This document shows positions 6,862 through 64,000 of a stretch of DNA of 64,000 nt, one piece after another. Both the position numbers and the translations under genes were made by a program. Position 1 is the stretch's first letter. Every line of letters starts with the position of its first letter. Below the pieces are notes generated by a model. The model did no database searches, was not told where the DNA came from, and saw nothing but the letters and a program-made list of their open reading frames with translations. The stretch comes from Megalonaias nervosa (Eukaryota; Mollusca; Bivalvia; Unionida; Unionidae), in contig JAECUM010003215.1 of the NCBI GenBank assembly GCA_016617855.1, forward strand, positions 1-64,000, in the 5' to 3' direction.

Positions 6862-7900
6862 CTATGTCTTGATTGTTGTTGTTGTTCTTTCATTACTGTT
6901 TCTGACAAATTGATTCTTTGGATTCCTGCTGCTAATATCCCTGTTTCTGTTGTCCCAGGAAATTGTTGATTCTGTTTCCCTTGATTTTCTTTTTCTACTA
7001 TTCCTGTTTGTCCCTGGTTTGTTTCCTGTGACTTATTCTCTAGTACCTTTCTCTTTACGTGTTGTTGTTGATTTTGCTGTTGCTGGTTCAGCCTTTGTCT
7101 TGGTTGTTGTTGTTGCTCTTTTGTTGTTATAGGTGTCAAAAATGTTCTTTGGATTTCTACTGTGAGTACTTCGGATGGTATTTGTACTTGTAATTTTTGT
7201 TTCTCTTGTTGTTTATTTTCCTGTACTCCTTTCGTTTGTCGATCTATTTCTGTTAATTTTACCTCATTTCCCTTTCCTTTTCTTCTATCTTGTTGCAGTT
7301 GTAGGCCTATTTGTTGCTGATTTAGTGTTTTCCCTGATCTTTGCTTGGAAACCGGTGTCTCTGGGATGGTGGTATTGTTGCATTCGTTGCCTTTATTTGT
7401 CTCACTTCGTGTTGATTCTGTGAGTTTTTTGGACATTTTTGAGGGGCATGTCCAGTTTGACCACAACGATTACACTTCCTTTTATATATACAACCCTTAT
7501 ACCATGATTTGGTGAGGAAGCCATTCAAGAAAAAGGCTCTTTTAACTTCTGTCAATCTAGTCTTTTCAATTTCTAGTATCCGTATACCATTAAAAATTTT
7601 GGTTAAAGGGATCGTATCTAGTCTTGCTGCTATGACCTTTATTTTTAATTTCTCTTCAAATTTCTCTACTGTAGCTTGCAGCGGTATCTCTAGTGGAATG
7701 TCAGATAAATGGAGTTCAGCCGTTTGTTTTTTTATTTTCTTCAACATGGGCGCTGGTTTTCTTACTGTCACATTACGAGTCATGTAATTTTCCCTCGAAC
7801 TGAGAAACCCGTCCATTATTTTAACATGCGTACGAATTAATCCGATGTTGATCGGCGTTATCCGTGGATCAACCGATTTTAGTCGAAAGCTGGCACACAA
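6822..7900 (-). pseudogene. Retroelement ORF1-like region: CCHC zinc knuckle plus Q-rich tail, frameshifted
   Basis: The first frame (7900 to 7322, 192 codons) has a region like the nucleic-acid-binding part of Tx1/L1-type ORF1 proteins (ELHLSDIPLEIPLQATVE, residues 62-79), then one CX2CX4HX4C knuckle at residues 143, 146, 151 and 156 (CNRCGQTGHAPQKC). A second frame (7466 to 6822, 214 codons) overlaps it by 145 nt and continues as a Gln/Lys-rich tail ending in a polyQ run made by the (GTT)n at about 6825-6860. One shift between frames joins them. It lies just upstream of, and in the same orientation as, the decayed LINE ORF2, so it may be its ORF1; family assignment is inference. Confidence 0.6.
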
Positions 7901-7962
7901 GATATAATGACCTCACCTCTGTAAACATAAGAAGCCAACGCCACGTTATATTGGCTTCTCTT

Positions 7963-19631: not shown

Positions 19632-19980
19632 GCTGTTGCTGTTGTTGTTTTGGGTTTAAAACCGTTTTTCAGCACACGATAGGCTATACATGGCAGCTTT
19701 TGCGTGGGTTCGAGTCTCCGGCTCGGCCAATGTGGGTATGTGAGAAAGCTTGCCAGTAGCTTCTCGTGGGTCGGTGGTTCTTTCCGGGGTTTTCCCGGGT
19801 TTTTCCTCCACCATTTATACTGGCCGCCATGTATAACCTATTTTGTGCTGCAAAATGGCGTTAAACCCTATAAAAACAACAACAACAAATGCATGGCAGC
19901 TAGTATAACTCTTGTGGATCAAAAGCCTAGAAAAACCTCTGTAAAACCACGGAAAGCTACTGGCAAGCTTTCTCTCGTGT
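19632..19980. mobile_element. Fold-back cluster of three SINE family B pieces
   Basis: A - strand 3' part (about 19632-19697, GTTGTTGTTTTGGGTTTAAA and AGCACACGATAGGC) abuts a + strand copy lacking most of its head (about 19698-19889, ending GGCGTTAAACCC and an (AAC)n tail), which abuts another - strand piece (about 19890-19980, AAGCTACTGGCAAGCTTTCT). Confidence 0.7.
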
Positions 19981-21216
19981 GAAGTTATTGTGCCTTCTGT
20001 TGCTTGTGCGTGATGACACGGTGAAACAATGGCAAAGATGTCACTTGTATACATTAATTAATGTTAACCTTCATTAGAATTTCTCTGACATACACGTGTG
20101 ACAGTCACTGGTTTTAGATTAAGAAGAATGCTTTATCCACAGCCCAATCTTTGTGACTTAAGGGAAGGAATATGTCCTTGGCTTTTTTACATTTCAAACA
20201 AGGACATAAAAAAGGAAAGAAAAAAGGAGAAATATTTGCTTTTGTAAATAAAAAAAAATTAATATATCTAATTTACACAAGAAGAGGTACATAGTTATTT
20301 TACAACAACATGTTGCAAACATGAAACTGCAGTTCAGTTTGCCTTGTAGACCACACAACTAAAGCAATCATCTGCCTTAAATAGACACTTTATATAAAAG
20401 TTTATATATGAACCTTTGCTAAGCAGACAGCTGATTTCGTTGGCCATTTTTTGGGCACTTGCCAGATGGAGATTTATGAGCGGTTTGGCTGGATCTATGA
20501 AATTGTTCAATTCAGGCCTTGTGTTATTGATCTGTTGAATTGGACAGTATCACAAGTAGTTTGTAAAAACAATAGGATTAGAGGATGCATCAGAAAGACC
20601 GTAACATCATGATTGATGAGCTATCCATTTACCACCTGTGTCATATTACATTAACAACCCATTTCAGGTGTGGCTTCAGGAATATTATGAGGGGGTGGGG
20701 TGGTGGTGCATGTAAGCAAGTAGTTTGGCAAAGGTTATATGGGACGGAGCCCTCCCTAGTAAGAGCCAAGGGGTAAAATTCCCAGAAGCTCTTCTATTTT
20801 AAGCATTTCCAGGATATAGATTTAACCATCTTACTGTAACGAACACTAATTCATGAAATATGCTGGTTGTTTTGCACTCAGTTTTAGTAAGCGGGGATTG
20901 GGGGGGGGAGGCCTCCCCCAGCTCTGCCTTACACCCTCTGGAATATTGCCCCTGTATTTGTATATTCATTTGCTTCATTATATTCTTATGATATTACTTT
21001 TGATTGTTGTTTTGTTTTTTTTTAAATCATTTACACAATATTGAGACATCGTTTCACCATTGAATTTCATGTTTGATCATCATATATATTTTTATGGTTG
21101 TATAATGTCTGATTTGTTTGCAGCCAGGCAACCTTTAATCAGATTATGATGTTAACTTTCTCAGCTTTCCAAAGCCACTAGGCAAAATGAAAAATCACAA
21201 ACTAAGGTATTGTCCA

Positions 21217-43706: not shown

Positions 43707-46700
43707 TGACAAAATATATTTGATCCTTAACAAAAGCAATAACAATACATATACAAAATATCATTTCACTTTTTCTTTGTGCATTTGCAGTTTCTTGTAA
43801 TTATAAATATTTTACATTTTTCCAGCTTTTAGCCAGTTATTTTATTTCTCTAACAAAAACTATGGATCTGTGTAGTGATTCTAGATTTCAAGATTTTCAT
43901 ACATATATAAAAAAAATCACAAATGCAAGCAAGCATGGTTTATATATCTGAGAAATGTCTAGAAAAGTTGACTGAAACACATCCGTAGCTATTATTTCAT
44001 TACACAGTAGAAAGGGAAATGACAGCATTATTGTTTATTTTGGAATAACAGGACCTTCAGAGTATATAACTGGAATGGAGTTTTTCATCAATTTTCCAAA
44101 GTCATTTGGGAAACATGTTTGCAGTTCTATTTGTTGTTTATTGCTCTACATTTTGCAATTTGCATCTGTACTTTATGTTCATATTCAGCATTTTATTTCC
44201 ATTAATACTGCATTCACTTGGTGTTAATTTTGCATTCACTCAGTGTTCATTTTGCATTCACTCAGTGTTCATTTTGCATTTACTTGGTGTTCATTTGGCA
44301 TCCACTCAGCGCATTCATTTTACATTCCTTTCAATCACTCATCATGATTCGTTGTTAGAGTTTTGGGTTTAAGTTTTGTCATGTCAGATGTGTGATGACT
44401 AATTCATCACAATTTGCATAATAATAAGACAAAACAGTGCTTCCAGTGGAACCCATGTCTGATAGCCTGGTAATTCTGAATAATCAATGTTGTAAATTTT
44501 ATGTATAGGTTGCCTAGTTTTCATTTGGTGAAAAAATTGAAATGCATTTTTTTTTCTTCCTGCAGGTGTCATCTGGTATGCCCTCCTGGAACCCATGGGG
44601 ACAGTTGTCAGAACAAGTGCCTGTGTCAAAATGGAGGACAATGCCATCCTGTGACTGGAACATGTAACTGTACACAGGTCTTTGGATATACTGTAAGTAC
44701 TTTGCTGTTTTCATTTTAACAAATTTTAAGTTTTGATATGCAGTATAATTCTCACTTATTTTTTGCATAACATTTTGCCAGAGAAAATAGACATTAAAAA
44801 AAATGTTCAGGCGATGGAAGGCTGAGATTTATTTCAAAAAAAATTTCAAGCCCTCAAAAAAAAGAAAATTTTTGCTTTGATTTGAAGCAAAAAAATCTAT
44901 TATATCAAAATATAATAAATAAAAAAATATATTAGTCAAAAAAAGTATACAGTGGTCCCCCTCTTATACGGCCACCCCTTCTGCACTGGGAAAGTGGCCT
45001 TATAAGATGGGTGGCCTTTCCAGAGGGGGACTATATTTGTGAGATGTGTATGTATATGTGTATACAGTAGGAAAGCTACTATATAACTTAGAGCAGTTAA
45101 TGTATTCATTTAAAAGTGGCATTAATTATTAAAATGTTCATCCTGTTTTAAAAACAGTTATTTCAAGGTAATAGAAATTAATAGTTCTTATTCTTAGGCA
45201 TGAAATGTAAGTGGGATATTGTTGACATGCGCACTACAAAACTATTGAAAAATGTTATTTAAATCTTGGTTCATGCATTATTTCGTATTTAAAATTATTC
45301 TCTTTCCATTTACTCCATTTTCCCACTGCTATGGAATATTCTTCTTATCTGTTACGATCTTGTTTATTTGAGTCTTCCTAACATAAAATCTTTTGGTAAG
45401 TGAACTCTCCCCATTGTTGTCAAGTCGAATAACATTGACTTTTTCTTCTAAAGCATTATTTCTTCGTATATGTGATGACATGTTAAAGTTTTGTAATGAT
45501 TTATTCCTATGTTGCTAATTGTACAGTACTGCAATTTAATTTTGCAGACGAAACTTTTGTACGTGAAACACCTTCTCATAAAGGAAGTGATACATGTACT
45601 GTCGTGTGATTTTTATCTGGTGCCCTGTTTTGTTCAAAGTTGATTGTTTCTGTGTGTATGTGTTAATCTGCAAAATCTATTTTTAGCCTATCTGACCATG
45701 TTATGATCTTGACAATTACCTTGGTCATAATTGTACAAAAAAAAATCTGCTGTGCGAAGCCCAAAGTTCTATCAAAACATTAAAACATTGTTGACTCCAT
45801 TTCTATTTAACCATGTTATGATCTTGACAATTACGTCCAGTTGTAATCGTCAATTAAAAAAAAAAATCTGCTGTGTGAAAAACAAAGCCCTATCAAAACA
45901 TTGCTGATCCCATTTCCTGCAAATTTCAGTGTTAATGATACAATAATAACATTAGTGCTACATGTACTTTAGCCAACACTTCTTTCAGTAATGAAAACAC
46001 AACATCTGGAAACGGACATCAGGAAAGATAATTGGATTACTTACCTTACCGTAATTAAATATTGGTTCTGGATAAATATTTATAATAAAATGTGTCCACT
46101 TGTGGGGGGTAAATTTTACATTTGTGCACCAATATGTTGGCTGCTGGTCACATTAGAGGGGTGGCCTTTCTTGAGGGGTACTTTTGAACACAAACTCATT
46201 GGTGCCAAGGGGGACCACTATATTAGTTGAAAAAAATATCTTGAGGTAAAAGAAAACATAATATCCCAGTTCTAAAGAAAATCACATCCCCTCACCTACT
46301 GAAAATTAAATTTTCAATCCATGTTTTTCACTAGAAGTCAGTGAAATGTCATTCTGTTATTTCAAGGTTATCCTGTTCATAAAATAAACATGTTTGTGCT
46401 AATTATCAGTGTACAATGTGATTAAATACTACACATACAAAAAAACCTCTGTACATTGATTGCACACTACACATGCAAGAAAATAATCTGTACAGTGTGT
46501 TTACATACTACACATGCAAAAAAATCTGTGTACAGTGTGTTTAAATACTACACATGGAAAATAATCTGAGTACAGCATGTTTACGTACTACACATAGAAA
46601 CAAATAATCTGTATACAGTGTGTTTACATACTACACATGGAAAATAATCTGTGTACAGTGTGTTTACATACTTCACTGGAAAATAATCTGTGCACAGTGT

Positions 46701-49700
46701 GTTTACGTACTACACATAGAAACAAATAATCTGTGTACAGTGTTTACATACTACACATACCAACAATCATTACATAATCCAGTAATTAGTGATTATTAAA
46801 CAAAGATTGCTTCTACAGTTCATTGGTTGCATAATGGTCAACAATTTCCTGACATTTAGTCATGGATATATATAGGATATGCTAGTAATGTCTGTATATC
46901 AGGAGTCAAATTTGATGACAAATGAAAAGAAATGAATTTTGAGCAATTTATCTAACTGTCAAAAATATTCAAATAAATGGTGTTTATTTAAGTGAGATTT
47001 ATTGTTCTCGTATCTGTATGTATTTTCACACTGTGTAGTTCCAACTTAGTTGGAAATACTTGGCAAAATGTTTGACAAGGTTTGTAGTGTAAGAAATGGT
47101 CCTTCATTGAACTTTTATGATTATTTATAAAAAACTTATTTTTAATTTAAGCATTGTCTTGTTGTTGTTCAAAGACATTAACAGTGTCTAAAGAATGTTC
47201 TTTAGAATTTTGCCATAGCAAGAACGGGTATGATTAATCAATAATTAGCCAGATCTGTAGTAAGTTTCAACAATAAGTGAATTAGTCTTGTATGGTAACA
47301 CATATCTGCACTGTGATCCAGTTAAAAAAAAATAACATTTCTAGTTTTCTGTTTCTTGCTTCTTAAAATGATTACTTCATAGAGTAATTCAAGAAATAAT
47401 ACAAATTTCAGAACAAAAATTAAATAAAGCGAAGGAACAAAATGCTATATAAAGATTCATCACTTTCAATATATGTTAAGTATTCATTGAAAAAAATAAT
47501 ATTCTTTGCAGTGCAGAATATGATCTTTGTACAGGTGAAGAACATGAATGTCATGCTATGCACAAGATTTCCTTGACATTGTACAATATTGTTGTTCTTC
47601 TCACATATGTCTCCACTTCAGTTTTGAGAACTGCCAGTCAATACATGCAGTACAATAGTATACATGTCTAAAACTGGGTTTGTTTCACCTAGGCCTTGTT
47701 GATTTCATTTTGTCCTGTAATTTCAGTGTGTCCATTGCAAGGAACCATGCCCAGATAACATGTGGGGCTTACCTATTTCATTTTGTCCTGTAATTTCAGT
47801 GTGCCAATTGCAATGAACCATGCCCAGATAACAAGTGGGGCTTGTCTATTTCATTTTGTCCTGTAATTTCAGTGTGCCAATTGCAATGAACCATGTCCAG
47901 ATAACAAGTGGGTCTTGTCTATTTCACTGTGTTCTGTAATTTCAGTGTGCCAATTGCAATGAACCATGCCTGATAACAAGTGGGGCTTGTCTATTTCATT
48001 GTGTTCTGTAATTTCAGTGTGCCAATTGCAATGAGCCATGCCTGGATAACACCTGGGAATTGTCTATTTCATTTTGTCCTGTAATTTCATTGTGCCTGTT
48101 ACGATGAACCATGTCCAGATGACACCTGGGCCTTGTCTATTTCATTTTGTCCTGTAATTTCAGAGTGCCTGTTACAATGAACCATGTCCAGATGACACCT
48201 GGGCCTTGTTTCTTTCATTTTGTCCTGTAATTTCAGGGTGCCTATTGCAATGAACCATGCCCAGATAACAAGTGGGGTTTCAACTGTAACAGTACATGTC
48301 CTGTTTGTTATAATGGAAAGTGTAAACGGTCAACAGGAAAATGTGAATGTTACTTTGGGTATGGAGGAGATGAGTAAGTAATTTAACAGTGGTTATCATC
48401 AATAACTTCCATTCTTACTTTAAAAAACTTTAATTATAGTCCTAGAGAAAATTAGTAAGTGAAGAAAGGAGGGGATTTTGTTATTGTTTGTTTGTTTGTT
48501 TGTCAGATATGATAATTAAAGGAACATTTAATGCTTTACAGACACTAATATCTTTTAAAATTTCTAAATATGAACTTATTCTAATTTTATAGTATGATAT
48601 TTCTTAAGTTTAATCATCCAGTTCAATGACATGGTGAACACCTCCTTGGGAAGGACCTTTGTACTTACATGACGTTTAGAAGTACTTGTCTACATTTATA
48701 ATTGAAACCTATTAAAAAGGACACATATCCATACAGGATGATTTTTGTCATCTTTTTAATATGCTTTGAACAGAGGTTTTACTGTACTTTTTGTTATGAT
48801 GCCAATGTTTTTGGCCACATTCCTTTTCTCCTGTGCAGACATTTTTACTGAAAAATGCTTCAGAAAATTCTTAACTTTCTTACTTTGTTGCAGGAGGTAC
48901 AACTGTACATAACAATAGGTAGTTTATAATTTAGTGCTTTGAGATGTATTCAGTAGCATACAATAGTTCTGCCTGATTTACCAGTACTGTATGTACATGC
49001 TTACAAGTTGAGTCCAACTGCAAACAACATTAACCCTAATCTGTCATGGCATGAGACACTTGCTGATCAAGGTCTGTGTTGTTTGTTCTACTGCCTACTC
49101 TTTTCAACCTGTGTATAGTCAGATCTGCCAGTACATTATGTGATGGAAGACCTGGGTCTGTACAGTTGGCAGTTGTAAGCAAGTGTATGCAGTATTTACA
49201 TTTTCTATGAAGCCTTGACAACATACAACTCTGTATACAATTTCTGTCAATCATTAAGTTTTAACGTTTTAGTTATTTGTACTTCCTAGGTTGCTCATTG
49301 TTAAAATTACGAAATATTCAAATTCTTAAATTAAAATGCCCAATATTTATGTTCTTAAAATGATATTATTTTGAATAATTAAATTTTAGCAAATCCCAGA
49401 TTTTAACATTCCTTGTTCTGCCTAATAAATACACGTGCCAGAATAAACAGCCATCTAACCCTATTTTAAGTATAGGGAAGTGTCTGCCTTTGACTTGGAT
49501 TGTGAAATTGATCCTTTAACTGTCGTATTTTACACACAAGATATCAACAGATAGACACATTCAAAACAAAACGTGATATTACAGGTGTCATGCCATGTGA
49601 TCCTTTCCAGTTCTACTCAATGCACATATATAGTTTGGCAAGGGACAATGATATGGGAACATGCAGTGTTCAGTTCCCAAAGCATGAGTCATGTTTCTGT

Positions 49701-50347: not shown

Positions 50348-53300
50348 GCTAGTTTGTTTTTTTAATTTGAACATATAAACAATAAAATGAAGTTTGATTG
50401 CTTTATTTTTTACAGACATGGGGACTATAAGACTGCAAATAACACAAATCACTGCTAACAGTGAATGAATTTTCAAATAAAATTAAACACAGGTCATCAA
50501 TTGCAATATTTCTTAAACGTAACATCCAAGCTTCATTGCCTCCCTTGTAAGGTAACTAAATGCCATTGTTAGTATGTAACCCCAGTCACTGTACTGACTT
50601 CTAGATAAACATTCAACTTTATAGCTTACAAATAATGACTGTATCATCACAAAATTTTAACATGAATAAAAGTGTAACGAAAATTAATCCACTTAATAAA
50701 CAAAATTTTTCCCTGCTGATGTTTTGTAATTTACAGTGTTTAGCAGCCAAAGTCAATAATATACACTAAAGTCAATAATAATAATAGTAATAATAATAAT
50801 AATAATATTACCTCAAAGTCAATAACATGCCATTACCTTTTGATGATTTAATTTCAGTTCTTCAATCAAAAAAGCAAACTCTGTCCCAAAACAATGTTTC
50901 TTGTGAACATTTTATCTCACCTTTGAAGTATAAGCAGGCTTTACTGTCCTAGTGGTGTCATTGTGTAAGGCACATTTTTGCATTTGAATCTGTTTATCTT
51001 ACACTGTTTCATGTACAGTCATGAAATTTCATCATGGAGGGTACAACACACTGCTGGTAAAAGTAGGTCTCAATGACCATCTTTTTATATTGCAGTGATT
51101 AAGTTTTTGCATTTAGTTCACTTTGCTTTTTGACACTGTTGTATGCACAGTCATGAAACTTGGTGAGTGCATTCATTTTTGTGAGTACAGGTCCACATTG
51201 GCCAAAGTGGGTCAGTGGTCTTCTTTTCACACTAGTGATTAAGGTAATTTCTTTGTGGTAAGTTTTGTTTAACTGATACTTTTATGTGTATAGTCATGAA
51301 ACTTGATGGTTTTATTTATCTTGGGCCTGATACAAACTTATCTGGGGCAAAAGTAGATAACATTGACCTACTCTTTATGCTCCATTGTTTATGTAAGGCA
51401 TTTTTCAGTTGCCTGAACTCAGTTTCTATGCACTGGAACAAATAAAAACAGCAACAACAATACATGTACTCTCAAACCACAGAATAATACATTTTCTTTT
51501 GTTTAAATAGAATCACTTCAGGGGCAAATTCATTTGTCATAATGGCATTAATATATACATTTCAGCTGTCAAACCCAATGCCAACCAGGTCGCTATGGTG
51601 ATAACTGTCAGATTCAGTGTCCATGTCTGAATGGAGGCACTTGTTACCAAATGGCTGATGGAGGGGATATTGCCTGTAACTGTTCAGCAGGATACATTGG
51701 AAAATACTGTAATCAAACTTGTCCATGTTACAATGGCGCCAGATGCTATTACACTACCACAGGCATTATTGGCTGTGATTGCCCTGCAGGATTTATTGGT
51801 GACAAGTGTAATATCAGAGGTTGGTATCAAATTTAATAAATGAGAAAAAATTGGTTTTTCCATGTCAGAATTATTAAGTAGCAAAAAAAATAGGCACCAT
51901 ATATACACGCTTATAAGGAGAGTCCAATAGCAAACATCATAGATCCTGATCGCCACTGCATAATGTGCTGTAAGGTCAGGGTCTGTGTTGTTTGTTATCT
52001 GATATACTTATAATGAACTCGTTAGACCCAGATCTGCTGATGCATTATGTGAACTCCACTTATAAGCTACTATATATGGCATCACATTTCTAGCATTAAT
52101 GGTGGCATCAGGGTCTACATTTTGTCCAAAGTATTTGTGTTAAATGTTTTGAAAGTCATAATGGTACATACAGAACTCCCTCATGATAAGGCACTTCTTT
52201 ATAACATGTCTCCTGTTATCAGACACTTATATAACATATTTCCTGTTATAAGGAACTTCTTTATAACATGTTTCTTGTTATAAGGTACTTCTTTATAACA
52301 CGTTTCTATTATAGGGCAGGTATAGTTATGGTTTGCATTTTGTTATGTACTGTAATAGCAAACTTATATGTATTATATACTTCATTATAAAGTGGCTCAC
52401 TATAAGGCAGTATACTCCATGACTCCCATGGACAGACTGTTATAATAAGGGCATACTGTAATGGTATGTTTTGCAAGAGAGATTTAGTATTCCCTTGAAC
52501 ACTTGACATTAAATTGTTTTATTACTTTGCAGTCAACTTAACTATGTGCTTCACTGATTCAGAGAGTATTTTAAAAGAATCTGGGGAGTATTTGTATCTG
52601 GCCTTTATCGTATTTATTTGCTTATATTAGTCAGGTCCTATTGCAAACAACACAGACCTTGATCTAATGACACATTGTGCACCAGCTGATCAGGGTTTAT
52701 TTTGGTTGTTCATAAGATTACTTGTCACATACTAAATAGACCCAGATCCGCCAGGGTATTATGTGATGGCAGATCTGGGTCTATGCGCTTTGAGGATCTT
52801 ATTGACACCATCAAGTGTTTCGGATATATGCAAGTTTCCACAAAACTAGTTTACTAAACTTTTGAATTGTTATACATAGTATTCATTTCTGATGCCTTAA
52901 TGTTTTAAAATTTCTTTTTGTAGCATGTCCACCAAACAAGTATGGAGTCAATTGTGAATATGACTGCCCATGTGTACAAAACAGAACAGAACTGTAAGTA
53001 GTGCTTAGATTCTTGAACAACTATTCTGAAAATGAAATCTGAGTTACTATGGTTAGATTTTTGTATCCCAGACAATTGATGTTAGTCACCTATTTACTAT
53101 AATTTACAAATGGCTTTGTCTGTAATACTGTTAAGTAATCTTGTCTGTCAAGATTTTAACCACTGAAACACAGTCAGATATTTAAATTGTCAATTGTCTG
53201 GGATGCAAAAATCTAACCATAGTAACTCAGATTTCATTTTCAGAATAGTTGTTCAAGATATTTAAATGAGGACACTATAAATCATTTAAATCAACCCCAC

Positions 53301-55887
53301 CTGCAGGCCTCTAATCCAACCCCTACCTACACTCCTTTAAATCAACCCCACCTGCAGGCCTCTAATCCAACCCCTACCTACACTTCTTTAAATCAACCCC
53401 AACCTGTACTCTGTAAATCAACCTCCACCTGTACATCTTAAAATCAACCCACCTGCACTTCTTTAAATACCCCCCTCCCGCACTCTTTTAAATCAACCAC
53501 CACCTGCACTCCTTTAAGTCAACCCCCACCCTCGCTCCTTTAAATCAACCCCTGCCTACACTCATGTAAATCAACCTCCACCTATACTCTTATAAAATGA
53601 TTTAAGAATAATATTGACAGAAGAAAGCAGTATTTTATGAAATGGCAAATGAAATTTAATTTCTATCTTCATTTTTTTTTGGTTGTACATGCAGATAGCA
53701 GATAAAGGGACATATGTTAAAGTCTCCAGCTTTTTATTTTTGTTTGTTTCCATGGAAGGGTTCATATAGTTGTTTCCCACACCCATCCTCTGTGTCACAT
53801 CTGCCACAGAGTTTATTTTGGCTCAATAGCTTTTGAAGGACTTAATGGATTCCAACCAAATTTAGCCATAGGCTTTAAGGGGATCTAGGTCAGGTTTAAT
53901 CTTCATCTTTTTGGGTTGCCAGACTTTTGTGTAATTATGGCCCTTGTTTTGATTACAACTTTACCATCCAATTGTATTATATTGGGATAGTGTAGGGATA
54001 CTTTTTGTACATTTATTTTCTCTTATAAATCCTATGCATTACATTACAACATTGCCTGATGCTGAAACAAAGTGTCCCACAAATTTTGTATTCAGAAATT
54101 AATGATAAATTTGTGAAGAAATTTCTGGCTCCATCCTTCACCTGTCATTAAAGATGAAAGTAATGCATCAAGATAATTGGCATGTTAGAGTGGATCAGGG
54201 GGACTAATTAGACATGTTTCAGCACTGTCATAATTAATGGTGTTTCTCAAGATGGAAGGTATAGTGGTCTGGCTATGGTCAGACTTGCCTGTAAAAATTT
54301 ACTGGGTCTTATATGGGCAAAACTGGTTGCTTTTTCTTGTTTTTGAATAAAGGAGAACAATTATCAGTGTGTGTTTGTTGGAATTTTAAAGTTCATTGGT
54401 GTAAAAGAAAATTAATTTACTTCAAAGCTTTGTTTTCTTCATAAATATTGAATCTTACATTTGAATTTTGCTTAATTCTAGTTATTGCTGTAATAAAATC
54501 TCATTCATTTCCAGCTGCCATCCCAATACTGGACACTGCTTCTGTAAACCAGGATGGCAGGGTATCTACTGCAATCAACCCTGCTCGTTTCCATATTATG
54601 GGGAGAACTGTGCTAAAGTCTGTGATTGCCTTAATAATGGAAATTGTGACCACATTACTGGACAGTGTGAATGTCAGCCTGGGTACAAAGGAGTCAGGTA
54701 GGAAACAGCAAAAATTAAATGTGCTTGAGATGATAGTGCACAGTAGCTTGGATAGCACTATGGTGAAGACACTTGCTTTGCATCTCGGCAGTTCTGGTTT
54801 GGATCCCTGAAACCAGCATATATTGCTCCCGAGTTATAATCTCTTTTAGCTAGCCATTAAAGTGAACTTTCTTATAAGTGCAGCCCTTTACCCTTGAGAT
54901 ATGGTCCAACATGATTTTGTCATTAAAGTGCCCTGTTATGTGCAAGGCCCTTTACTCTTGGGATATGGTTCAACATGGTTGTGTCATTAAAGTTACCTGT
55001 ATTATGTGTGAGGTCATTTGACCTTGAGATATGGTCTAACATGGTTGTGTCACTAAAATGACCTTTTATGTGTGAGGCCCTTTACTATTGGGATATGGTT
55101 CAACATGGTTGTCATTAAAGTGACCTTTGTTATGCATGAGACCCTTTACACAAAAAGGTGTTCACAATGTAAAACCACATTCTAACTGGTTCTTATTAAC
55201 CCAGTAGATTAAATTAAATAAAGTACTGTATACACTCAAGTGCAAGCCAAGTCCAAATGCAAACAACATAGACCATTATCTGCTGTCGCATAATGCACTG
55301 ACAGATCAGGGTCTGTGTTGCTTGTTCTACTGATTACTCTTAACAAACTGCATAGACCTAGATCTTTTTGTTCATTATGCAATGGCAGATCATGGTCCAT
55401 ACTGATAGCAGTTGTATTTGACTTATATGTGAGTATATATGGTAGCAATAAATAAAATGTCATACTGACATTATAAGAGAGGCAGCAAAATACTCAGGGA
55501 TGCTATGGTGAAGGACCACTGTACATGTTTAAAGTGAGGGACCACTGTACATGTCTAAAAGGAGAACTGTACATGTTTCAAGTGAGAAACCACTACACAT
55601 GTTTAAAGTGAGGGACCACTGTACATGTTTTATTGTGAGGGACCACTGTATATGTTTTATAGTGACCACTGCATGGTACTAGCAGGTGCCTCGCTAGGCG
55701 CTCAGCATTAAGAGGTTAGTATTAGGACTGGTCAGCCTCAGGTGTAAGGATAATAAGATGGGGTGGGACATCATGCAACATGTCTGTGGCATGATGCCTC
55801 AGTGCTAGACATCATTATAAACTGTCACACTGCAGACAACATAGTGATATGACTGAAATTTTTTTAAAGCTATCTTAAAAATCCAAA

Positions 55888-55920
<33 letters not shown>

Positions 55921-58900
55921 CCAACCCTTTGCTGCCCATAAAAACTGTAATTTTGAAGAAATATTTGTAATCTATTCTGCAGCTTGATTGCAAAGGCCAA
56001 TAAATATGTGAGGTGTTATAGACATATTCAAGGGTTGGAAGACATATTTTTAGAGACCATCTAATTTCAATCAGGAATATAATATGCTTGTTAAAAGACA
56101 ACAATTTAGCACGCAATAAAATCATCAGCAAAAATGTATGATACCTCCAAAACCATCCAATTCTGTTTGTATTAATAACCAAAACCAAGTAAACAGGATT
56201 TGAGGTGTTTCTTAAGCATGAATGAGTTCATTGACAAGACATGTCGGAAGGTTTTAGCTTTTGTTTATAAGGATATAACAGGATACAAAGCAAAATGACA
56301 GTAGCAGATATGCTTAACTCGCCTTGATATGTTTTTGTTAAGAGTTACGGTACTTCGAAAATTATCCATCTCTGATTCCAGATGTGAAGAAAGATGTGAT
56401 GACGGCACATTTGGTGTCAAGTGTCAAGAAAAATGCAACTGTAAAAATGGAGTATCTTGTGATGCTAGCAATGGTCGCTGCATATGTACAGCTGGTAAGA
56501 CCTGACTTTTTATAACTAAGAGTAATATTTTTTTTTTAATGAATTTAAAATTTACAATCATGTTTACCTGACATTTTTTTCATTATTTGGAAAAATGTGT
56601 AAACATCTCAGCCCTTTGAAGAGTAAGGCTAGTGGTAAATTTTCAGATCATATTTTTGTATGCTCCATTGTGACATAGGTGTAGATCTAGATTGTTAACC
56701 TTTTCCATCTCTTGTGGGTCGGTGGTTCTTTCCGCGGATTTCCCGGTTTCTTCCTCCACCATTAATACTGGCTGCCATGTATAGCCTATCGTGTGCTGAA
56801 AAATGGCGTTAAGCCCCACAACAACAACAACAACAACAACCTTTTCCATCAGTTACATCTTGGTTACATTTTGCATTTTAGGTCATGTCAGGTATTGATG
56901 AGTGTTAACTGTAAGTATATAAAAAATACACAGTATCGAGGAATAAAGAGTGACATTTAAGTATACAACCCAAGTTTATTATTGTTCTCCACATCATAAC
57001 ATGATTTAATACATAACTTCATATGTGCCACCTGATCAAAATGAAAACAAATATTAGAAAATAATATGCAGCGGCAGATCTGGGTTCCTGCAGTTAAAAG
57101 TTAGATCGAACTTACATGCGTCTATATTCAGTAATGCTGTAGAATTTATCTTGACAGAACTTTAAGTTTACCAGAAACATTAACCTAGATTTGAAAAAAG
57201 TGCTTTTGTTTAGGGATCTGTCTCAGAGATATATTTAGGTTTTCATTCTATAATCACAACTTTATTAATATAATATTTTAATATTTTTTTTAAATAGTGG
57301 TAAAGTTTTTCATTCTGTAATCTCTACTTGTACTGTTAATTACATTCTGTTAGTTTTTGAATCAGTAATCAAACTACGCATAATGGGGACACAATATATG
57401 CATCATCAATTTTTGCTCAATTGACCCTTGTAACCACAAAGATGCATGTTCATATAACATTTGTATTTTGGTCCCATTTTTTAGGTTGGAATGGAACATT
57501 CTGTGAGTCTCCCTGTGTTGGATATTATGGATTAAACTGTGCCTCTCTGTGTCTGTGCTCATCAGAGACCTCGGTATGTGACCCATTTGATGGGACCTGT
57601 ACATGTAAGCCTGGATACACTGGGAAATATTGCATTGAGCAATGTAGTGTAAGTAAATGTCATTTCTGCAGTAGTTTGCATTTTTGTTGCTATCTTATGT
57701 TTGGGAGAAGCCTAATTTGAAGCAGGTTTCTATTCTCTTTAATAGTTGAGTAGATATCATTAGGTGCCACACTGTTATCATTACCAGTAATAATACACAT
57801 AAATGACAGAAAGAGTTATCTCCCTTTCATCCACTAAAAAGTTCTTTAGTTTTTTCTAATGTGATTGTGTTGAATAAAGCACATGTCTTTGAGACTGAGT
57901 ACCCAACACAGTTAAATGGTGATGTCATACATCAGTTATGCACAGTGAAAAGTTCCAAGAATATTTTGATGTTTTAGAAGGGTTTTTGTAGCTAATTTCT
58001 TGCCACATTACATGCTGTGATAAAAGCATGTTTTCTTAATAATGGATATTTTTATGTAAGATTCCTAAAGATTGTGGATTTTTTATACATATTATGTGTA
58101 GGCTTTACTCCATTATGATAGATGAGTTGATATCTTGAGACAATAAGGTTTATGTGCATGATAATATTGTCAGAGATTGTTTCCAATGTTTTTCAGGCCT
58201 GGAAGTTTGGCAACCAGTGTTCTCAGTTGTGCAGTAGCTACTGTGATCAGAACAATAGTTTGGGTTGTCATCATGTGACAGGGGAATGTATTTGTATGCC
58301 AGGGTGGAGTGGTAAGTATCTCAGGATTAATTCATTTAAATTTGAGGTATCTGATGTCAGTGGTTCAGCTAGTTCCAAAAACGGATTTATCGTACATCTA
58401 ACAGTTCAGATGTACATTAATGCAGGCAGATGTTAACAGCATAAACCCAGATGTACCATCTCATTATACATTGACAAATAAAAGTCTGTTCATTGTTCTC
58501 ATTATGTTTTTAAGTGACAAGCCAATTGTAACACTGATCTACACTGCACACAATGCTCCTCATCTACCAGCACAGTATGCCACTAATCTACCAGTATGGT
58601 ATGCCAGGAATCTACTAGCTTAGTATGCATCTGATCTACCAGCACAACATGCCTTTTATTTGCCAGCACAGTATGCCCTTGATCTGCCAGCACATTATGC
58701 CCTTGATTTGTCAGCACAGTATGCCCTTGATTTGCCAGCACAGTATGCCCTTGATTTGCCAGCACAGTATGCCCTTGATCTACCAGCATAGTACATCCTT
58801 GATCTACCAGTACAGTGTTCCTCTGATCTTCCAGTATAGTTTGCTCCTGATCTACAGTGGTGTGGTACTAAATCAAGAAGAGGGAACACATGTTAGTCAA

Positions 58901-61153
58901 ACATGGGGGAAGGGGGGGCAATGGTGAGTGAAAAAAACGTAATGGAATACTGTTCCCATGGATTCCCACAGCTCTATACCCATGCTGATCTACCAGCACA
59001 GTATGTCCATGATCTACCAACACCGTATGCATCTGATCTACCAGAACATTGTTTTTGATCTACTAGCACAGTATGCCTTTGATCTAACAGTACATTATGC
59101 CTCTGATCTTCCAGCAAATTATCCTCCTTATCTACCATCACAGTATGCATTTGATCTACTAGAACATTTTGTCCTTGATCTATCAGTACAGCTTGGCCTT
59201 CATCAACCATCAAATTATGTTTCTGACCCATCAGCACAGTATGCGCTTGATCAATAAGCACAGTATGTCTGTGATCGACCAGCACATTGTGCCCCTAATC
59301 CAGTACCAACACATTATGCCTATATCAACCAGCAAATTATGTTCTTGATCTACCAGCACAGTATACCTTTGATCTATAAGCACAGTATGCCCCTGATTGA
59401 ACATCACAGTACAACTCAGGGGCATAATGTGCTGGTAGATCATTGGAATAATGTGCTGGTAAATCGGGATCATAATGTGCTGGTAGGTTAAGGACATCCT
59501 GTGTTACAGATCAAAGGCATGCTATGCTGGTAAATCAAGGCCATAATGTGCTGGCAGCACAGTGTGACCCTGGTGTAATATGTTGGTGTGTGTGTTTGTG
59601 ATTTGGATTTTTAACGTAGCTTTAATGTTTTTTTTAGCCATATTGCTACGATGTATATAATGTCACATTATCCTGACACCAGGCCAACCAGTCCTAACAC
59701 TAACCTGTTAATGCTGAGTGCCAAGCGATACAGCTTCTAGTACCTTTTTTCATAAGTCTTTGGTATGACTTGGCTGGGTTCAAACCCGTGACCTCCCGCA
59801 TCTGAGGCAGATGCTCTAACCATTTAGGCCAATGGAGTAGTCTATTATATGTTGGTAGACCAGGGCATGATGTGCTGGTAGATCAGTCATACTGTGCTGG
59901 TAGATCAGTCATAATGTGCTTGCAGATCAGTCATAATGTGCTGGTAGATCAATGTCATACTGTTCTGGTAGATCAGGGTCATACTGTGCTGGTAGATCAG
60001 GGTCATAATGTGCTGGTAGATCAGGGTCATACTGTGCTGGTATATCAGTCATTATGTGCTGGTAGATCAGTCATAATATTCTGGTAGATCAGGGTCATAA
60101 TGTGCTGGTAGATCATTGTCATACTGTTCTGGTGGTCCAGGGTCATACTGTGCTGCTAATAGATCAGTCATACTGTGCTGGTAGATTAGGGTCATACTGT
60201 GCTGGTAGATCAGTCATAATGAGCTGGTAGATCAGGATCATACTGTGCTGGTAGTCCAGGGGCATAAAGTGTTGGTAAATCAGTGGAATAATGCTCTAGT
60301 AGAACTAGTTAAACTGAATAAGTAATTGTCTGCAAGTTACTACTTTGCAAATAGAATGAGTACCCTACCTTTTAAGTTATCTCTTGTTTATTTTTAGATA
60401 TATCCTTATGAAACAAAAATTACAGAAAGATTTATAATAAAGGATACTATTGCTAGACTGTTTAATTTGGAGTCTTGATTCTGAAATCAATTGTTGCGTT
60501 TGGTGAGTTCCAAGACTACACAAACTGCATTCAAATTCAAGATTACAAACAAAATATAATAGCTGCCATGTATAGCCTATCCTGTGCAGAATAATGGTAT
60601 TAAACCCCACAAACAAACCGAATTCTGTAAAATATTGACAGGCAAAGAAATATAAACTTGCTGTTGTTTTGATTTATCAAAGAAAACATTTTCATATTTT
60701 ATGTTTAATAAGGCACATATTTGTCAGTAATTGATTCTGTACCTTTTTTTTCATTCTCACAAAAACATGGTCATCACATTTACCTGAGTTTCTGAACAGG
60801 TTAATCAAGAAAGTCTGTCAAAAGTTTATATTTTTATAAATATTACTTCACAGACTCTGGGGAGGGATCAGCCTAATGTATTGGTGTGTGTTTTCATTGT
60901 AGATGTGTAGCAAATTTTAAACGATTGTTCTGTTTCAGGCTTGAACTGCAAGTCTTCCTGTCCAGCCAATAAGTGGGGCCCTAATTGCCTGGACAACTGC
61001 AACTGTAAGAATGATGGAACATGCGACAGCAGCACTGGGTCTTGTATCTGTCCCCCAGGGTACCAGGGCACCTTGTGCGAACAGAGTAAGTTGGAATGTT
61101 TATTTGATCACATTTAAAGTTTAAAACATATATTCTATTTAGTGTTATATTGT

Positions 61154-61884: not shown

Positions 61885-64000
61885 CAATAATCACTCTATA
61901 TGCATACTTAAGTACTATGCAATTACATGTAAAAGATAATAACTGTATATGCATGCTTAAATACCATACAATTGCATGGCTAAGATAATCACTCTATATG
62001 CATACTTAGATACCATACAATTACATGTAAAAGATAATCACTGTATATGCATACTTAAATACCATACAATTACATGGCTAAGATAATCACTGTATATGCA
62101 TACTTAAATACCATATAATTACATGGCTAAGATAATCACTCTGTATACATACTTAGATGCCATACAATTGCATGTAAAAGATAATCACTCTATATGCATA
62201 CATGTACTTAAGTATCATACAATAACATGTATAAGATAATCACTGTATATGCATACTTAAGTACCATACAATTATATCTAAAATATAATCACTGTATATG
62301 CATACTTAAATACAATACAATTACATGGCTAAAATAATCATTGTATATGCATACTTAAATACCATATAATTACATGTATAAGATAATCACTGTATATGCA
62401 TACTTAAATACCATACAGTTGCATGGCTAAAATAATCACTGTAAATATGCATACTTAAATACCATACAATTACATGGCTAAAATAATCACTGTATATATG
62501 CATACTTAGATACCATACAATTACATGTAAAAGATAATCACTGTATATGCATACTTAAATACCATACAATTACATGTAAAATATAATCACTGTATATGCA
62601 TACTTAAATACCATACAATTACATGGCTAAGATAATCACTGTATATGCATACTTAAATACCATACAATTACATGACTAAGATAATCACTCTGTATACATA
62701 TTTAGATGCCATACAATTACATGTAAAAGATAATAACTCTATATGCATACTTAAGAACCATACAATTACATGTGAAAGATAAACACTGTATATGCATACT
62801 TAAATACCATACAATTACATGTAAAAGATAATCACTGTATATGCATGCTTAAATACCATACAATATCATGTGAAAGATAATCACTGTATATGCATACTTA
62901 ATACCAAAAAATTACATGTAAAAGATAGTCACTGTATATGCATACTTAAATACTATACAATTACATGGTTAAGATAATCACTCTATATGCATACATAAGT
63001 ACCATACAATAACATGTATAAGATAATCACTGTATATGCATACTTAAGCACCATACAATTATATCTTAAAGATAATCATTGTATATGCATACTTAAATAC
63101 CATACAATTACATGGCTAAATAATGACTGTATATATGCATACTTAAATACCATATAATTACATGTACAAGATAATCACTGTATATGCATACTTAAATACC
63201 ATACAATTGCATGGCTAAAATAATGACTGTATATATGCATACTTAAATACCATACAATTACATGTATAAGATAATCACTGTATATGCATACTTAAATACG
63301 ATACAATTACATGGCTAAAATAATCACTTTATATATGCATACCTAGATACCATACAATTACATGTATAAGATAATCACTGTATATATGCATACTTAAATA
63401 CCATACAATTACATGGCTAAAATAATGACTGTATATATGCATACTTAGATACCATACAGTTACATGTAAAAGATAATCACTGTATATGCATACTTAAATA
63501 CCAGACAATTACATGGCTAAAATAATCACTGTGTATATGCATACTTAGATGCCATACAATTACATGTATAAGATAATCACTGTATATATGCATACTTAAA
63601 TACCATACAATTACATGGCTAAAAAAATGACTGTATATATGCATACTTAAATACCATATAATTACATGTATAAGATAATCACTGTATATATGAATACTTA
63701 AATACCATACATTTACATGGCTAAAATAATCACTGTATATATGCATACTTAAATACCATACAATTACATGGCTAAGATAATCACTGTATATGCATACTCA
63801 AATACCATACAGTTACATGTATAAGATAATCACTCTATATGCATACTTAGATACCATACAGTTACATGTATAAGATAATCATTGTAGATATGCATACTTA
63901 AATACCATGCAATTACATGGTGAAGATAATCACTCTATATGCATACTTAGATACCATACAATTACATGGCTAAGTTAATCACTGTATATATGCATACTTA
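61885..64000. repeat. 48-50-bp minisatellite at the start of intron 16, runs off the window
   Basis: Unit ATAATCACTGTATATGCATA, CTTAAATACCATACAATTAC, ATGGCTAAG or ATGTATAAG. About 43 copies in 2.1 kb and still going at base 64000. Two unit types (GGCTAA and GTATAA/GTAAAA) alternate in long stretches, suggesting a higher-order unit of about 97-100 bp. Confidence 0.93.

Follow-up and report, generated by a model that had tools for sequence, protein, structure and literature searches.

A minisatellite across the exon 8 acceptor of a freshwater mussel receptor gene: very probably a tolerated intron-exon "mirage" that a paralogue shares

The stretch of Megalonaias nervosa DNA that I consider here (the window, meaning all 64,000 nucleotides from the start of contig JAECUM010003215.1) holds part of what is, judging from its predicted protein, a MEGF10/Draper/PEAR1-type cell-surface receptor gene of a freshwater mussel. 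The model within the window has 16 exons between 31067 and 61873, is phase-consistent, encodes 701 aa without a stop, has AG and GT at all internal borders and has lengths of 70-254 nt for exons 2-16; the gene then continues to 89565 of the window's contig (C2704 below), with a cytoplasmic tail and an exon that looks membrane-spanning. A 606-residue query taken from 13 exons is 86% identical to a MEGF10-like protein of Sinanodonta woodiana (order Unionida), while the remaining relatives among the matches listed reach 29-44% identity to the same query. Exon 7 (44566..44692, 127 nt, forward strand) is 95% identical to the matching part from S. woodiana and ends in phase 0 at an ACT/GTAAGT donor, precisely where the initial annotation had placed it, after 44692. 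Exon 8 (48237..48373, 137 nt, forward strand), the eighth of the 16, is EGF-like and is entered in phase 0 and left in phase 2, and exon 9 (51566..51819, forward strand) comes next in the chain of the exon model. Elsewhere in the window, the minus strand at 7322-7912 carries an open frame in which one stretch (CNRCGQTGHAPQKCP) resembles a CCHC zinc knuckle, and this frame is probably a piece of a retroelement.

Across the acceptor of exon 8 lies a forward-strand tandem array of eight head-to-tail units (47696..48277), which Tandem Repeats Finder returns as 47695-48277 with a period of 73, 8.0 copies, 89% matches and a score of 837. Every unit joins 31 nt of intron end to about 42 nt of exon 8 start; the first seven are 73, 73, 73, 72, 73, 73 and 73 nt long in order and the eighth continues into exon 8, and over all pairs the units are 80.6-95.9% identical, with a mean of 86.5%. 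Unit 1 (47696..47768) keeps the native upstream intron flank and carries a decoy acceptor ending at 47726 (AG/T), unit 2 (47769..47841) carries one ending at 47799 and unit 3 (47842..47914) one ending at 47872, all three scoring 5.99 on the matrix introduced below, and unit 3 also holds a donor-like CAA/GTGGGT after 47907 that scores 7.9. These are followed by unit 4 (47915..47986; acceptor 47945, score 3.79), unit 5 (47987..48059; 48017, score 4.60), unit 6 (48060..48132), which has AT in place of AG at 48090, unit 7 (48133..48205; 48163, AG/A, score 6.75) and unit 8 (48206..48277; 48236, AG/G, score 8.56), whose acceptor opens exon 8, so that six of the seven upstream acceptors are intact. 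The eight copies, the 73-bp unit and the acceptor positions given by the initial annotation were all reproduced by the program and by unit comparison, the AT mutation at 48090 was seen in unit 6, and its description of a minisatellite lying across an exon boundary of a receptor ectodomain is supported. A search of the mussel's own genome (2.19 Gb in 54,709 contigs) gave no second haplotype of this stretch among the matches listed, for which the best candidates were scored.

The last copy, 48236, is very probably the real acceptor, as the protein of S. woodiana has a junction that is exactly the product of this site, and the exon parts of the decoys would begin with Cys or Ser where the real one has Gly. 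Compared codon by codon with the real exon start, with one gapped codon omitted, the seven decoys together show 30 nonsynonymous and 7 synonymous differences, whereas a comparison of the real exon 8 with that of the paralogue (described below) gives 7 synonymous differences and 1 nonsynonymous one in 45 whole codons, and from this opposition only the last copy looks constrained. The strength of the sites was judged with a small acceptor matrix built from the 12 other exons then known, each of those 12 real acceptors being left out in turn, and the real ones score from -0.73 to 12.17, 48236 scores 8.56 and the six intact decoys score 3.79-6.75. The six good-looking decoys of the initial annotation are therefore right in number, but 33 to 135 of the 1471 other AGs between 34607 and 61873, exonic ones included, score higher (decoy ranks 34-136), which makes the decoys good acceptors and not exceptional ones.

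What would follow from their use is a matter of reading frame. Read on from the end of exon 7, each of the seven upstream copies, the AT copy included, leads to a stop after 21-29 codons and more than 100 nt ahead of the exon 8 donor; from 48163 the phase-0 frame meets a TGA after 29 codons, in keeping with the TGA within about 90 bases that had been read there at first. The companion claim, that upstream acceptors change the frame, stands insofar as the frame is broken or a stop is met in seven of seven, but the acceptor at 48017, lying 219 nt upstream, is in frame, yet stops anyway. Nonsense-mediated decay usually operates where a stop and the junction that follows it are over 50 nt apart, and since the stops behind the decoys come early and more than 100 nt before the donor, decay is the expected fate of decoy mRNAs; the suggestion that the decoys might produce useful truncated ectodomains is accordingly not supported. 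Use of 48236 gives an exon of 137 nt, use of 48163 would give one of 210 nt, and the other five intact decoys would give 356-647 nt. Now considering that 48163 differs from the real site within -20 to +3 only at +1, and that its 210-nt exon falls inside the gene's range of 70-254 nt, it is the likeliest site to leak.

A second copy of the gene, represented by exons 1-10, lies on contig C8188. Over exons 7-10 it matches the window's gene at 551 of 588 nt, the colinear aligned pieces of the two contigs are mostly 68-85% identical with exons included in the highest ones, and among 195 residues there are 177 matches between window and Sinanodonta, 174 between paralogue and Sinanodonta and 179 between window and paralogue; in a tree meant to date the duplication against Sinanodonta, IQ-TREE groups the two paralogues at 95, though with very distant outgroups. 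By the residue counts, the C8188 copy has diverged further than would be expected of an allele, and it appears to be a duplicate gene. Contig C1709, which carries exons 11-18, is probably the rest of this paralogue, on the strength of complementary exon sets and not of linkage, and an exon-11-like piece at C24804:53739-53927, 70% identical to the Sinanodonta protein, suggests a third copy or a fragment of the receptor gene.

The C8188 copy has its own array at exon 8, with 14 units against eight in the window, and its left and right ends are the same as those of the window's array relative to the first acceptor and the exon; intron position and phase are also the same in both genes. Eight of the 13 upstream acceptors on C8188 are intact, five units have AT, the real acceptor is at 20154, and each of the 13 upstream copies, when read in phase 0, runs into a stop after 21-29 codons. 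In a tree of the units, those of the two arrays intermix, with mostly low supports (0.06-0.91, one of 0.996); window unit 8, the cluster-end unit that in a mirage (see below) would be less homogenized than the others, groups with the last and 10th units of the C8188 array at a support of 0.685, and mean unit identity is 0.865 within the window's array, 0.848 within that of C8188 and 0.842 between them. The shared ends together with the intermingled units suggest a probably old array whose copy number has changed, and these sequences are most simply read as going back to an array of several unit types that probably existed before the gene duplication; exchange between the paralogues could mimic such great age, and the retention of the array in both of them could reflect selection. 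The intron minisatellites at 46410-46899 and 53256-53596 also align with array-bearing stretches of C8188, so several arrays may predate the duplication.

The paralogue also bears on how one acceptor is chosen among many, since its decoy at 19861 is identical to its real acceptor over 31 intron bases and the first 20 exon bases, and the local signal alone therefore cannot make the choice; it is probably distance to the exon's donor that does so. Two other candidates were tried and rejected. A G directly after the AG fits the window's array, where no copy other than the real one has it, but it fails at decoy 19861, which reads AG/GG, and real exons of the window gene also begin with bases other than G. 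A choice based on RNA structure fails as well, predicted pre-mRNA accessibility being lowest at the real site, the opposite of what would be needed. The decoys themselves carry little trace of selection: among them 1 of 12 acceptor-core columns is variable versus 23 of 61 other columns, which is not significant (Fisher P 0.089), and neither is the longest invariant run in the decoy units (P 0.20). The AG survives in six of seven decoys, and a rough neutral expectation, worked out by hand from 7% divergence per unit (86.5% mean identity), is about 6.0 of seven, a match by which nothing points to selection either keeping or removing them.

The place of the array needs no special reason either, because minisatellites are dense here and random placement would strike more boundaries than are struck. 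Arrays with a period of 10 or more make up 19% of the window and 25.7% of 31067-64000, and in this latter region they span 1 of 31 exon boundaries, when about 7 of 31 would be expected under random placement (P 0.999 for one or more boundaries and 0.009 for one or fewer). For one or fewer, P is 0.012-0.037 with stricter array definitions and 0.045-0.18 with whole-window nulls and 13 exons, so that exon boundaries are, if anything, avoided by arrays, with modest support (P 0.009 to 0.18 by setting). The initial annotation's view that a minisatellite over an exon boundary is unusual is not confirmed by these counts. One of the region's arrays, of 42 copies of 49 bp (61887-64000), starts 14 nt past the end of exon 16 and reaches the window's edge without including the donor. 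Another observation concerns intron 14, where two 24-bp arrays lie back to back (58534-59411 and 59416-60283) with related units in opposite orientation (CTGATCTACCAGCACAGTATGCCC, TGGTAGATCAGG...), and the RNA of this intron could possibly form a very long hairpin.

Furthermore, exon 8 is not the only boundary affected. A search of the genome with the Sinanodonta protein yielded 38 matches, 30 of them with DNA; 29 of these were examined, one being cut by a contig end, and some come from more distant EGF genes. Boundary-spanning arrays were found at the exon 8 acceptor in the window's gene and on C8188, and over two donors, those of exon 17 (C2704) and exon 13 (C1709), a fifth flagged array only adjoining exon 16. 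The exon 17 array belongs to the window's gene and starts 943 bases past the window's end (C2704:64943-65080, 28 bp x 4.9), with donor-like sites at 0, 28, 57 (GC), 85 and 113 nt on; the GC site at +57, if used, would add 19 residues in frame. The exon 13 array, on the minus strand of C1709 in the probable paralogue, is 34 bp x 15 and has 14 consecutive GTAAGT donors (GTAAGTAA sites), nine of them preceded by TGCAGT, and every donor except the first would add V-S-K-stop. The corresponding exons of the other copy showed neither donor array, exon 13 of the window being without an array. The authentic copy is the first in donor arrays and the last in acceptor arrays, and it is always the one adjacent to the exon. 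At myosin-head exons, none of 30 loci (from 73 matches) had a boundary array, in a comparison that would miss arrays more than 20 nt from the match end, and boundary arrays may on this count be rare in the genome.

From these observations I consider it highly likely that the exon 8 array is a boundary-spanning minisatellite, or "mirage", which is tolerated, the exon-adjacent copy being used and the decoys being passive or leaky. A 73-bp segment made of intron end and exon start would have been duplicated in tandem and would have grown by slippage or unequal exchange, probably before the two gene copies parted. An array growing over an acceptor would leave a single terminal copy, the most downstream, on the whole exon, and since this copy stays on an intact exon, further growth would lengthen the intron and leave the coding sequence untouched. 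Under exon definition, the spliceosome would most likely pair 48236, the closest acceptor, with the donor at 48373, a pairing favoured because it yields the shortest and only productive exon (137 nt against 210-647 nt from the intact decoys), and an mRNA made with a decoy would gain a stop within 30 codons and be expected to be degraded by nonsense-mediated decay.

A broader and rather unlikely proposal is that boundary arrays are a regular, heritable product of mussel genomes rich in minisatellites that outlasts gene duplication and serves as a decoy bank, copy number setting the unproductive fraction of receptor mRNA to a measurable degree; if true, nature would be providing its own duplicated-splice-site minigenes, in which as many as 14 acceptor copies, or 14 GTAAGT donors without a difference between them, stand in a row. 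A copy-number rheostat at this one receptor, which the initial annotation had raised and which is not supported, seems less probable still; here the decoys would draw the spliceosome away from the real site, the unproductive share of the mRNA would rise with each added copy, and the array would thereby set receptor dose. The intact decoys (3.8-6.8) do fall within the range of the gene's real acceptors (-0.7 to 12.2), every upstream copy brings an early stop, the paralogues differ in copy number (8 versus 14), and human TERT intron 6 is reported as a precedent in which repeat number, at least nine 38-bp repeats, controls splicing (PMC3948165), but decoy survival fits the rough neutral estimate, AGs of decoy quality are common across the gene, and the amphioxus mirages are reported as normally spliced (PMC3087553, PMC3902484). 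An exon or intron in the making, with a unit becoming a poison exon through a decoy acceptor and an in-array donor, is very improbable: unit 3 does combine an acceptor of 5.99 with the CAA/GTGGGT donor of 7.9 (13 real donors score 6.3-10.4 on a matrix made from themselves), and an intron-gain model has been proposed for the amphioxus mirages (PMC3087553), but the product would be either a 35-nt exon that shifts the frame or a 108-nt exon that contains an in-frame TGA, and 1.7% to 3.7% of the GTs in the gene span score as high, so that a single site of this kind in the array is about what chance would give. Just as improbable, although tandem arrays are often misassembled, is a wrongly assembled array or copy count. 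The BflGb6 mirage is reported as misassembled in the amphioxus draft (PMC3087553), but the mussel units differ by 4-19%, which a wrongly repeated read would not give, and in the paralogue, whose assembly was separate, a homologous array starts and stops at the same points.

The tolerated boundary array that I favour is, by its structural features, a mirage of the kind already described in amphioxus: each unit holds intron and exon sequence of one boundary, most but not all units keep the splice signal (6 of 7 upstream copies in the window and 8 of 13 in the paralogue), and 5' and 3' boundaries are both affected in one genome, as the donors of exon 17 (C2704) and exon 13 (C1709) demonstrate. 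Tandem acceptors of the NAGNAG type, which lie a few nt apart, are ruled out by the spacing of 72-73 nt, and intron gain by tandem duplication, which places a new intron inside coding sequence and leaves the mature mRNA unchanged, was rejected with the same intron position and phase in both paralogues and a 16-exon model without an added intron. The choice of the spliceosome among near-identical neighbouring sites is usually studied in built minigenes, and these are natural tandem arrays in genes with conserved exons: two of acceptors, with 8 and 14 copies of which 7 and 9 have AG, and one of 14 GTAAGT donors. In one acceptor array a decoy and the real site agree at all of 31 intron and 20 exon bases, so that local strength is not the whole answer. 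The arrays also suggest that such a repeat may survive the duplication of its gene and yet gain or lose copies, and boundary arrays could feed exon-boundary shifts and new introns. The open-licence papers listed in the literature searches describe splice-boundary arrays for amphioxus only, with none found for molluscs and nothing relevant found on classic duplicated-splice-site experiments, and such arrays are now seen outside the only animals that had them there.

Among known systems, the 38-bp VNTR in intron 6 of human TERT is likewise an intronic tandem repeat whose copy number affects splicing, but it is described as lying more than 1 kb from the exon junctions and as acting by RNA pairing, without copied splice sites (PMC3948165). 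Intron gain by tandem genomic duplication, as reported, resembles the mussel case in that a duplication supplies splice signals, and differs in that the mussel unit copies one acceptor, a new intron being neither needed nor supported (PMC4974935, PMC2891723). Closer in structure are the amphioxus globin, Adh3, troponin C and PGBD5 genes, whose mirages are described as tandem repeats across intron-exon boundaries; the number of units varies in some of these genes, and splicing is reportedly normal (PMC3087553, PMC3902484). In PGBD5, imperfect repeats of 60 and 108 bp overlap splice sites and the copy count differs between assemblies, but an extra exon was predicted inside the repeats, which the authors excluded, and none is supported in the mussel (PMC3902484). 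In Adh3, short units (10-72 bp) lie over a boundary and are said to be without effect on splicing, and whereas length instability, including somatic instability, is reported there, in the mussel the difference is between paralogues only (PMC3087553). BflGb6, finally, is reported to have tandem copies of an intron 3' end and an exon 5' part, as in the mussel exon 8 array, its units being 81-100% identical and many of them having splice signals, with six and three units on its two haplotypes; it differs in coming from a chordate, in its unit length of 150-160 bp against 73 in the mussel, and in that its haplotypes and RT-PCR products are known (PMC3087553).
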